This document shows, in pieces, positions 11,262 through 21,188 of a stretch of 64,000 bases of DNA. Both the position numbers and the translations under genes were made by a program. Positions within the stretch are counted from its first letter, which is position 1. Each line of letters starts with the position of its first letter. The stretch is from contig JAJECI010000010.1 in the NCBI GenBank assembly GCA_022822065.1, positions 1-64,000 of the forward strand, in the 5' to 3' direction. Source of the DNA: Candidatus Dadabacteria bacterium (GTDB lineage: Bacteria > Desulfobacterota_D > UBA1144 > Nemesobacterales > Nemesobacteraceae). A model generated the notes under the pieces. It did no database searches. It was given only the letters and a program-made list of their open reading frames with translations, and was not told where the DNA came from.

Positions 11262-12296
11262 CTAAGAATGAATGCCGTTCCGCCTGCCCGTCGCACGGTT
11301 TCCGAACGTTGCGGTAAAAAACAGTGCGGACACTATCAACAGCAGGTTAAGGGCGTTACTCCCAGGCGTACTGTCGCTTCCCGCCGCGATTGCACAACCT
11401 CCGCCGCTGACACTCTCGACGACATCCTCCACTACTTCCTCAACTTCTTCAGGCTCTTCCATGGGTTCTTCCATAGGCTCCTCCATAGGTTCTTCCATGG
11501 GCTCCTCCATGTCCGTAACTATTTCACATCCCGAAAGTGGGGTGCCCGTTTTCGGGTAGATACCGGAACCGAAGATAACACCTGGAGAACCAGCGAGCGC
11601 CGCCGCTCCCAAGTACTCAAAGGGATTCACAACGTAGCTTATTTTCCAAGAGAAACCGGGGGCCATCATTACGTTGGCGTTGGGCTCGTCGTCACCCTCC
11701 ACAGTCGGATCATTCCAGCAATACTCAACCGAGGCGCCAGAAGGAGTCCCTGCAACCGCGTCAGTAATTACCTCAAGGACATCCCTATCCCCCCTGTCAA
11801 TAGCTTGAAGAACCGTACCCTCAACACTTGGATCTGCTCCGTTATAAAGCATCGTTCCGTCATCGTTCATGATGAAAAGATATATGGAACCCGACACCCA
11901 CTCTGGGCCGCTGCCAAACACCTCACGGAAGCGGTGGGTAAAATCGCAACCTTGCTCTACATCCGCCCTAGTCAGACCCACGGTAGGAAAAAGAGCAATA
12001 AGTGGTTTTATCTCCTCTGCCGTAGCGGCTGAAAGATCAGGAATAGAGCTTGCGAAAGGAGCGAGTTTAGTAATTTGGCTAAAATCACAGCCCTTTATAA
12101 TGGTATTTATGTAATACTCATCAATCGCCGCCTCTACGAATGGTTTAAGGTCCGCTTCGGTCTGTACCTCATCGGCGTGTGTAGCGTGCACTGAAGTCGT
12201 AATACCGGAAAAGGCGCCCGCAAACACCAGCATGCACAAAAAAAGACCCGCAAGGGCCGCTGTCTTAAAGACAGTATTTCGCATTAATACTCTCAT
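11262..12296 (-). CDS. Secreted single-Cache protein with Cys-type C-terminal sorting-like tag
   Basis: A 344-residue exported protein. It has a signal peptide (to about residue 38), an alpha-helical start (DEYYINTIIKGCDF) and a Cache core with SGSIYLFIMNDDGTML. EYCWNDP (191-197), WKISYV and GSGIYP (243-248) complete the pattern of sensory single-Cache domains. A linker of five MEEP repeats (263-282) and a Glu/Val stretch leads to GGGC (Cys301), a hydrophobic helix (about 315-330) and an Arg-rich tail. No signalling output domain is present. The tag matches that of the protein at 5270. AAGGAGG 5 nt upstream fixes the ATG at 12296. Function inferred: surface-anchored ligand sensor or binder. 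Confidence 0.75.
   Translation of the reverse strand: MRVLMRNTVFKTAALAGLFLCMLVFAGAFSGITTSVHATHADEVQTEADLKPFVEAAIDEYYINTIIKGCDFSQITKLAPFASSIPDLSAATAEEIKPLIALFPTVGLTRADVEQGCDFTHRFREVFGSGPEWVSGSIYLFIMNDDGTMLYNGADPSVEGTVLQAIDRGDRDVLEVITDAVAGTPSGASVEYCWNDPTVEGDDEPNANVMMAPGFSWKISYVVNPFEYLGAAALAGSPGVIFGSGIYPKTGTPLSGCEIVTDMEEPMEEPMEEPMEEPMEEPEEVEEVVEDVVESVSGGGCAIAAGSDSTPGSNALNLLLIVSALFFTATFGNRATGRRNGIHS
11451..11510 (-). repeat. Five 12-nt in-frame tandem repeats (MEEP)
   Basis: Five copies of a 12-nt unit encode Met-Glu-Glu-Pro, forming an acidic spacer between the Cache domain and the C-terminal tag. Copies differ at third positions (for example ATGGG versus ATAGG on the plus strand). Copy number could vary by slippage. 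Confidence 0.85.
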
Positions 12297-12689: not shown

Positions 12690-13664
12690 ATGCTGGAAAT
12701 CAGTTCTAGCTCTGAAATAAAGCTTTCCGGTACCGATATATACTTCGACTCGAAGCGGGCCGTACCGCTTTCTTTTATTTCAAGCGCGAACTTCAACAAG
12801 CTGCCCCGAAGCGAAAAAATCATAGCTACTCCCGAAACGATAAAGCTTCTGGGGAAAAAAATTAAAGGCTCGGCGGTTCTTTCTTCCCCTTACGGAAAAC
12901 CTTTCACTCTGGGCAGCTACTCGATTGAGCTTATCCCATCGGGACAGATGCTCGGGGCGGCGCAGGTGGTCGTCGAAAAAGACGGAAAGAGAATCGTTTA
13001 CGCGGGTGGCTTCAAGCTCAAGAATACCGCCACGGCAGGCTACGCAGAACTCAGGAGATGCGACACGCTGGTCGTAAACTGCGCCTACGGAGCGCCGAAG
13101 TTCATTTTCCCCCCGCCCGAAGTAGTAATGGAATCCATATTCGAATTCATAAACAGGACACTGTTTGAGGACAACGTGCCGGTAATCCTGGTAAACCCCA
13201 TGGGAAAAGCGCAGGACCTTATACTTTTCCTCGGGGAAAGAGAAATAGAGATGAGCCTTCATCCAGCGATGGTTAAGACTCTAAGGCTCTATGAGGAACT
13301 CGGGGTGAGGATTCCTCCCTACGGAGGAATAAAAAGAAAGCATTTCAAAAACAAGGTCCTGATAGCCCCTCTTTCCTACAGGGACTCCGCGGTCGTCGAG
13401 AACCTTAAAAGAAAGAAAGTTGCGGTGATAAGCGGCCGCTCAATGGAAAACGGAACGTTTATTAGATCGGCTCTACGGGCCGAGGTGGCGTTTCCCTTGA
13501 GCAACCACTTCGGATACGACGAGATTTCGGAGTATCTCGGCGTTTCAAGACCCGGGAACGTGATCATAAGGGGAAACTTCGGCGATAGCTTCACGGAAGG
13601 ACTTGAGAAGGACGGGTGGAACATAACGGCGTTTAAAAAGCCGCGCCAGCTGGAACTTTTCTGA
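12690..13664 (+). CDS. Metallo-beta-lactamase-fold exonuclease homologue lacking metal ligands (pseudoenzyme)
   Basis: The 324 residues align by eye with the CPSF-like MBL exonuclease family (the 'ligase-associated exonuclease/mRNA 3'-end processing factor' group) throughout. The metal site is gone. Where the family has SHAHxDH this protein has SSANFNK (31-37). PAGH is PSGQ (Gln86), YTGD is YAGG (Gly107) and the ESTYG-type motif is NCAYG (130-134). Only the late SDH-type His survives, as SNH (271-273). VNPMGKAQDL keeps the family's helicase-like-side motif. The ORF is intact and conserved between motifs, so it is not a decaying gene; a structural or regulatory role is inferred. It ends 7 nt before yjbQ. 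A stop codon lies just upstream in frame, so 12690 is the first usable start, although no clear Shine-Dalgarno is present. Confidence 0.75.
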   Translation: MLEISSSSEIKLSGTDIYFDSKRAVPLSFISSANFNKLPRSEKIIATPETIKLLGKKIKGSAVLSSPYGKPFTLGSYSIELIPSGQMLGAAQVVVEKDGKRIVYAGGFKLKNTATAGYAELRRCDTLVVNCAYGAPKFIFPPPEVVMESIFEFINRTLFEDNVPVILVNPMGKAQDLILFLGEREIEMSLHPAMVKTLRLYEELGVRIPPYGGIKRKHFKNKVLIAPLSYRDSAVVENLKRKKVAVISGRSMENGTFIRSALRAEVAFPLSNHFGYDEISEYLGVSRPGNVIIRGNFGDSFTEGLEKDGWNITAFKKPRQLELF

Positions 13665-13671
13665 GGACAAA

Positions 13672-14091
13672 ATGCCGGTTGAAACGAAATCATTCACTAT
13701 AAGCACCCAAGGCGACTGCGACATACTGGACATAACTCCTCACGTGAGCCGAGAGCTTTCCAAGGCGGAACTGTCTTCGGGAACGGCCACGGTCTTTGTC
13801 GCCGGCTCGACCTGCGCGGTCACAACCATAGAGTACGAAAGCGGGGTGCTCTCCGACCTGAAAGACGCGTTTGAAAGAATGGCGCCAGAGGCCATGCACT
13901 ACGCGCACAACGCCAGATGGGGCGACGGAAACGGTCACTCGCACGTAAGGGCGTCTGTGCTCGGACCCTCGCTTACGGTTCCGTTCTCAGAGAGCGGTCC
14001 GCTGCTCGGTACCTGGCAGCAGATAGTGCTCGTTGACTTCGATAACCGCCCCAGAACGAGAAAGGTAATCGTCCAGATTATCGGAGAATGA
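13672..14091 (+). CDS. yjbQ: YjbQ family protein (secondary thiamine-phosphate synthase / UPF0047)
   Basis: A 139-residue protein of the UPF0047/YjbQ family. E. coli YjbQ has weak thiamine-phosphate synthase activity, and the true role is unsettled. Family signatures are GSTCAVTTIEYE (about 42-53), HNARWGDGNGHSHVRAS and LGTWQQIVLVDFDNRPR. GAGG lies a few nt before the ATG. The gene begins 7 nt after the MBL-fold gene and is surely co-transcribed with it, which makes the two plausible partners. Confidence 0.9.
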   Translation: MPVETKSFTISTQGDCDILDITPHVSRELSKAELSSGTATVFVAGSTCAVTTIEYESGVLSDLKDAFERMAPEAMHYAHNARWGDGNGHSHVRASVLGPSLTVPFSESGPLLGTWQQIVLVDFDNRPRTRKVIVQIIGE

Positions 14092-20078: not shown

Positions 20079-21128
20079 TCATCGGAAAAGTTCGAGTTGA
20101 GCGGGTCCGTCTTTTCTGAAGCGGGAAACGTCAAGAGGCGCCTTCCTTCCCGTAAAACCGAATTTCCCGTAAGCCACGCGAAAGATTCTTTCGGTCTGCT
20201 CGGCGAAAATCCCTTTGCCCTTCATCCGGACGCGGTACTCAGAAGAGTTAAGGTCTCCGTCCCTCATAGACTCGATTCTCCCCAGTATCTTTTTCTTTCT
20301 GGCGGGGTAGTGGCGTCCGAGCCACTCGGAGAATATGTCGGCAACTCCGTAGGGCAGCCTGAGCATCACGTAACCCGCGTCGACGGCCCCGCGGGCCGAA
20401 GCCTCTTTCATTATGGCCGGGATCTCATGGTCAGTCAGCCCGGGAATCACCGGGGCTATGAGCACCGTCACGGGAATGCCGGCGTCCGTGAGCTTGGCTA
20501 TTGCCCTGAGCCTGTACTCGGGTTGCGACGCCCTGGGTTCCATCTTTCTTGAAAGTTCGCCGTCAAGCGTCGTGACGGAGATAACCGCGCTCGCGCAGCC
20601 GATTCCGGCCATGTCGGAGAGAATATCAATATCGCGGGTCACCAGATGGTTCTTGGTCACTACACCGACCGGGTTTCGGAATTCCCGCAGGACCTCAAGG
20701 CATTTTCTCGTTATCCGGAAATGTTTTTCCGCCGGCTGATAGCAGTCAGTGACCCCGCTCATCGCTATCGGCTTGGGAACCCATTTCGCCGAGCGAAGCT
20801 CCTTTCTCAGGAGCTCGGGGGCATTCTGCTTCACGAAGATCTTCGTTTCGAAATCAAGTCCCGCGGAAAGCCCCAGGTATTCGTGCGTGGGTCTTGCGTA
20901 GCAGTAAACGCATCCGTGCTCGCATCCCCGGTAGGGATTGATGCTCGCGTCAAAGGAAACATCGGGACTCTGGTTGTAGGAGATTATGGTTTTCGTCCAG
21001 TCCCTGTAGTAAACGGTTCTGGGGGCGGCGTCAGCGGCGGATGCATCCTCGTCCGCAACAAAATCAATCCGCTCGAACCTTCCCGCAGGGTTCTCCTGGG
21101 ACCCCCTTCCCTTTATGGATGGCTTCAC
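20079..21128 (-). CDS. PA0069-family radical SAM protein
   Basis: A radical SAM protein of the PA0069/Rv2578c group, related to spore photoproduct lyase-like proteins; its reaction is unknown. The [4Fe-4S] motif is CEHGCVYC, preceded by INPYRG. The N-terminus KPSIKGRGSQENPAGRF is the family start. A TTG at 21161 would lie inside the lon terminator stem. The GTG at 21128 has GGGAG 9 nt upstream and starts exactly at the conserved region, so it is chosen (349 residues). Confidence 0.88.
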   Translation of the reverse strand: MKPSIKGRGSQENPAGRFERIDFVADEDASAADAAPRTVYYRDWTKTIISYNQSPDVSFDASINPYRGCEHGCVYCYARPTHEYLGLSAGLDFETKIFVKQNAPELLRKELRSAKWVPKPIAMSGVTDCYQPAEKHFRITRKCLEVLREFRNPVGVVTKNHLVTRDIDILSDMAGIGCASAVISVTTLDGELSRKMEPRASQPEYRLRAIAKLTDAGIPVTVLIAPVIPGLTDHEIPAIMKEASARGAVDAGYVMLRLPYGVADIFSEWLGRHYPARKKKILGRIESMRDGDLNSSEYRVRMKGKGIFAEQTERIFRVAYGKFGFTGRKAPLDVSRFRKDGPAQLELFR

Positions 21129-21145
21129 TTTGCGAATCTCCCTTA

Positions 21146-21188
21146 AACTAAAAAGCCCCAAAGCGGCAGCGGCCGCCTCGGGGCTTTT
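21146..21188 (-). terminator. Terminator of lon
   Basis: Stem AAAAGCCCC (21151-21159) / GGGGCTTTT (21180-21188) with an inner GGC/GCC extension. On the minus strand it ends in a T-run after GGGGC. It lies between lon and the radical SAM gene and separates the two transcripts. Confidence 0.8.

Follow-up and report, generated by a model that had tools for sequence, protein, structure and literature searches.

Among the bacterial beta-CASP proteins, RNase J2 of Staphylococcus is one with reduced activity. CPSF100 and INTS9 are MBL/beta-CASP pseudoenzymes whose metal ligands have been lost (PMC7980224), while the human nuclease SNM1A (DCLRE1A), of the same fold, is tethered to a sliding clamp through a short motif, a PIP box on PCNA (PMC7607226). 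Bacterial proteins bind the beta clamp through a motif, QL[S/D]LF or QxxLF, that frequently sits at the C-terminus (PMC12309361, PMC4549789); Q-aliphatic-x-[L/M]-[F/L] is a wider form (PMC13254535). In the limited open-access literature searched, no MBL/beta-CASP protein was found among the clients of the bacterial clamp. Here we describe a gene at 12,690-13,664 (forward strand, stop included) of the window, i.e., the whole 64,000-nucleotide stretch of Candidatus Dadabacteria DNA analysed, which encodes a metal-erased protein of this fold with a tail resembling the clamp-binding motif.

Fold and the former metal site

The ORF runs uninterrupted from its ATG and encodes a protein of 324 aa. TIGR04122 (ligase-associated exonuclease) is the closest curated family, matched over residues 14-312 (E-value = 4e-34); the score of 118 bits does not reach the curated cut-off of 325 bits and therefore the protein is not just a ligase-associated exonuclease with its site erased. 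It groups beside an uncurated, tail-bearing branch. The operon of that family, with an ATP-dependent ligase and a DEXH helicase, is not present at the locus; the window and the relatives alike have yjbQ and an npdG-like gene beside this one. An ordinary TIGR04122 member is thus ruled out by score, motifs and operon. Pfam search with the product gave no significant match. The AF2 model (pLDDT 87.8, pTM 0.87, with an input alignment of 30 sequences) retrieved CPSF73, TTHA0252, RNase J, FttA and SNM1-family structures in Foldseek (E-value = 3e-15 to about 1e-11), the range for CPSF73, TTHA0252, RNase J and SNM1 being 3e-15 to 1e-12. This places the protein by its fold in the MBL/beta-CASP superfamily. 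A phage or plasmid origin of the gene was also considered and rejected, as there was no phage match and the plasmid matches were distant TIGR04122 or archaeal proteins.

Motif positions were read by aligning the protein against relatives with intact sites. The original prediction had proposed four erased motifs, and the alignment bears out each of them. Specifically, the HxHxDH of motif 2 (SHAHxDH, proposed to read SSANFNK) aligns to S32-x-N34-x-N36-K37 in ISSANFNK, leaving SANFNK at residues 32-37 (12,783-12,800); PAGH of motif 3 is PSGQ, its His replaced by Gln86 (12,945-12,947); the TGD of motif 4 (YTGD, now YAGG) aligns to AGG, its Asp replaced by Gly107 (13,008-13,010); and the Glu of motif A aligns to Asn130 in VVNCAYG (13,077-13,079), the proposed NCAYG. 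The His of motif C (THG), now Arg294 in IIRG (13,569-13,571) by alignment with the intact relatives, is a further loss that was not on that list. The statement that only the SNH His is left stands for His273 of motif B (13,506-13,508), but the Asp of motif 1, D20 in YFDS (12,747-12,749), is kept too and is invariant in alignments A1 and A2. In total, the key residue is gone from five of the seven motifs, and of the nuclease metal motifs 2, 3, 4, A, B and C only the His of motif B remains, next to the Asp of motif 1. Such a loss of ligands predicts that the protein has no nuclease activity. Misalignment, which the original prediction had named as one possible weakness, is ruled out by the fold prediction and by the intact relatives aligning through all motifs; realignment puts the metal motifs nowhere else in the protein.

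Orthologues, relatives and the C-terminal tail

The nearest named records belong to Candidatus Dadabacteria. Of the 61 genomes searched, 33 gave a match. These take in the whole genus, its sister genus and many of the order's families, though not every one; among these 61 genomes the small-genome family f8 gave no match. The 32 complete orthologues form a single clade (support 100/99 in one tree and 96/98 in another), and not one of them, in the genus or across the order, keeps HxHxDH, intact relatives being found only in other phyla, apart from a separate TIGR04122 gene in G034; the possibility that orthologues retain the ligands can thus be set aside. The motif 3 position is variable across the order, and some members of family f3 alone have the His there; the Glu of motif A is Asp or Lys in orthologues; the SNH His is lost in some of them; and the Asp of motif 4 is present almost everywhere in the order outside the window's genus and lost throughout that genus. 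The ligands seem to have been lost in steps, as motif 2 and the Glu of motif A are gone everywhere and the motif 4 Asp in the genus. The emptied loops are more conserved (0.81-0.82 for the regions of motifs 1, 2, 3 and B) than the whole-protein average (0.63), which argues for a reused pocket.

Every complete copy read is open and within-genus dN/dS is 0.03-0.16 (median 0.10), in agreement with the earlier proposal that selection acts on the ORF. The 32 intact orthologues and a dN/dS of about 0.1 rule out a recent pseudogene or an assembly error. Considering the order-wide loss, the purifying selection and the intact fold, the protein is very likely a pseudoenzyme, as had been proposed. In one genome of the order, G034, the metal-erased protein occurs together with a separate, true TIGR04122 enzyme that scores 480 bits (L045, 3963-4970, and L020, 1498-2460).

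A profile of the Dadabacteria proteins, run on 387 sampled genomes, led to relatives in other lineages (E-value down to 2e-87), and a profile of those led to many more. These relatives keep the metal motifs and, where tested, score about 190-243 bits with TIGR04122, again under its cut-off. Members of the phylum of genome G272, in which 47 of 58 genomes gave a match, lack the metal motifs where they were read (SFLSSA.., LLYAP.., LILGA..). The model of this second metal-erased family (L184-L213) has a pLDDT of 88.0 and a general order of elements like that of the Dadabacteria protein. The trees separate the active proteins from the others by a branch of modest support (92/79; 87/63), and an AU test does not reject placing the Dadabacteria proteins next to the active G185 (p = 0.52). 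Both one and two losses of the metal site fit these trees.

The Dadabacteria protein ends in QLELF (residues 320-324; 13,647-13,661), which resembles the clamp-binding motif. QLxL[F/L/I] ends all 32 orthologues, with Q320, L321 and L323 invariant and position 5 often Leu instead of Phe. In the AF2 model the tail lies past the last strand, outside the fold and at low pLDDT, the chain closing with nine tail residues, so that a canonical motif stands in an accessible place. The original prediction of a binding or regulatory role was in this respect incomplete, since it overlooked the C-terminal motif that gives the role its content. The tail was identified as a clamp motif only in hindsight, and short motifs can match by chance; of the ends of 869 other long ORFs in the loci retrieved, none has the strict pattern and two have the relaxed one. 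One of these two is a PA0069-family radical SAM gene in the same window (20,082-21,161, reverse strand, 475 bits), whose product ends in ...PAQLELFR and so has the same clamp-motif-like tail as the 324-aa protein. Scanning the genome for QLxLF with a stop directly after it, using a stop pattern (TRR) that admits TGG as well, gave seven matches, including this gene and one antisense to a receptor-like gene. Concerning the rest of the clamp system, the beta clamp of the window's genome is ordinary, aligning over its full length with solved bacterial clamps, and MutS carries QLLLF close to its end.

The tail is also present in 24 of the 31 intact-site relatives of other phyla, as QLSLF, QLSLL, QLELL, QMSLF or similar, and the relatives without it include near-misses (QLRLDL, QLSFL, QNYELF) and truncated tails. 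Within the active group Q1, L4 and F/L5 are fixed while positions 2 and 3 are free (QLSLF, QMSLF, QISLF, QTELF, QKELF). None of ten TIGR04122-type enzymes has it. In the metal-erased family of G272's phylum 25 of 31 members end in QPTLF or similar, with Pro at position 2 and thus a less canonical clamp motif, and five in HLPxLF; in the model the last five residues, QPTLF, are below a pLDDT of 50. In the unrooted trees the tail-bearing actives lie between the Dadabacteria proteins and TIGR04122, so the tail is most simply read as older than the metal loss. Haloarchaeal relatives named "mRNA 3'-end processing factor" (L104, 286-1305; L106, 178-1236) have intact sites and end in QTRLDQF and QTRLDDF, which resemble the PIP box for PCNA.

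Gene neighbourhood and alternative explanations

The yjbQ gene (UPF0047; 13,672-14,091, forward strand; PF01894 E-value = 3.8e-33, TIGR00149 93 bits) starts 7 nt past the stop codon of the 324-aa ORF, and a GAGGA overlaps that stop. In Dadabacteria yjbQ is adjacent and downstream in 30 of 31 loci, with a gap of 2-17 nt in 29 of them, and this spacing and conserved order make co-transcription probable, as was first suggested; orthologues sharing both the lost ligands and the yjbQ neighbour were also found. This linkage would be explained if the protein formed a stable complex with YjbQ or controlled it, its role then being metabolic and not one in DNA. However, genomes of the order usually have at least two yjbQ copies, and YjbQ is also present where the metal-erased protein is absent, so that the linkage, though strong, is not obligatory. 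The gene is not a neighbour of the tail-bearing relatives outside Dadabacteria either, for which reason YjbQ was rejected as the partner of the wider family, and the tail would be left unexplained; overall, we consider such a partnership unlikely. We know of no link between yjbQ and the clamp. The window's genome has two YjbQ paralogues (G000:C10:37857-38237 and window 13,672-14,091), the one beside the pseudonuclease being the lower-scoring (110 vs 92 bits). On the other side, the ORF just upstream (11,262-12,296, reverse strand) has a PMEEPMEEPMEEPMEE repeat, then a hydrophobic segment and an RR-containing C-terminus, and looks exported. Relatives in other phyla have different neighbours. 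A helicase-like gene is downstream in 17 of 24 loci of the active group (the example tested has a DEAD domain, and G377 and G102 have Helicase_C_2), in G319 an ATP-dependent DNA ligase lies two genes downstream, and in the metal-erased family of G272's phylum ftsK is downstream in 25 of 30 loci. Such neighbours favour a DNA transaction.

Other readings concern the tail and the emptied site. Hydrophobic C-termini may act as degrons, and QLxL[F/L] is short enough to be a protease-recognition or packing element of a cytosolic pseudoenzyme with some other function, yet the pattern of constraint, with Q1, L4 and F/L5 fixed and positions 2 and 3 free, is the clamp consensus, and we find this explanation quite unlikely. 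The protein could also be a pseudo-subunit like CPSF100 or INTS9, pairing with an active MBL/beta-CASP nuclease to position its substrate, with a tail that is incidental or serves dimerisation. This is a known fate of dead members of the fold (PMC7980224), and the order member with a true TIGR04122 enzyme of its own would suit it. However, the genome of the window (96.5% complete) has neither an RMMBL protein nor a second TIGR04122 match, and hence the heterodimer model fits poorly; no candidate for an active paralogue was found in it, and the modelled chain has no C-terminal dimerisation domain, stopping with its nine-residue tail. We regard a pseudo-subunit as distinctly improbable. A remaining enzymatic activity in the former active-site groove, at a different metal site or by chemistry that needs no metal, might be sought in D20, His273 and the conserved Cys124 and Cys131, and in the conserved loops of the former site; with five of seven motifs stripped of their key residue, and with neither His273 nor Cys131 invariant in the order, it is very improbable. 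Finally, part of the order lacks the gene, as does the small-genome family f8, and this would be expected of a functionless, decaying gene, but the open copies, the low dN/dS and the conserved loops and tail speak against it, and decay is effectively refuted by the selection data.

Proposed role and comparison with known systems

The reading we favour, and hold to be probable, is that of a non-catalytic, clamp-tethered MBL/beta-CASP factor in DNA replication or repair. The QLELF tail would dock in the beta sliding clamp's hydrophobic pocket and thereby keep the empty nuclease fold beside clamp-loaded DNA, where the conserved, re-lined groove of the former active site would hold on to a nucleic-acid end, or to a protein partner, and not hydrolyse it. 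Possible outputs are end shielding, competition with clamp clients such as MutS, and recruitment of partners. The protein would derive from a wider bacterial family, as yet uncurated, of beta-CASP nucleases that bear the tail and have intact sites, the Dadabacteria branch having lost the metal site and retained the clamp tail. Homology, fold, ligand loss, purifying selection and an invariant, accessible tail, found in other phyla with an intact site, come out of the computational analysis; binding to the clamp, to nucleic acid or to a partner, and the process served, are what we infer from them. The clamp prediction hinges on a five-residue peptide. If the tail binds beta, a nuclease-fold family joins the bacterial clamp interactome, bacterial and eukaryotic clamp-bound beta-CASP proteins are linked, and selection is seen to drop catalysis while keeping tethering, possibly twice. 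We give even chances to the wider proposal of an undescribed, multi-phylum bacterial family of clamp-tethered MBL/beta-CASP nucleases, the counterpart in bacteria of SNM1A on PCNA, in which at least two phyla turned the enzyme into a non-catalytic clamp-bound factor with the tethering retained. The family brought out here is uncurated and databases now put it, below the cut-off, near TIGR04122.

With TIGR04122 the protein shares homology over almost the full length, the fold and the order of motifs; it differs in scoring far below the cut-off, in the missing metal site, in its QLxLF tail and in the absence of the ligase-helicase operon. The uncurated tail-bearing relatives (G377, G115, G185, G085, G183 and others) are of equal length and most carry a QxxL[F/L/W] tail, whereas their metal motifs are all intact and their neighbours are a helicase or a DNA ligase instead of yjbQ. 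CPSF100 and INTS9 have likewise lost ligands and kept the fold, but they are subunits of RNA 3'-end processing paired with an active paralogue, and no such partner was seen in the window's genome. Staphylococcus RNase J2, also a bacterial beta-CASP protein and a Foldseek match of the model, is longer and pairs with RNase J1, while the window's genome is without an RMMBL protein. Finally, SNM1A is active, much larger, carries a UBZ and uses another clamp and another motif, so that the comparison concerns only the way of working; in that sense, the Dadabacteria protein on its clamp may be comparable to SNM1A on PCNA.
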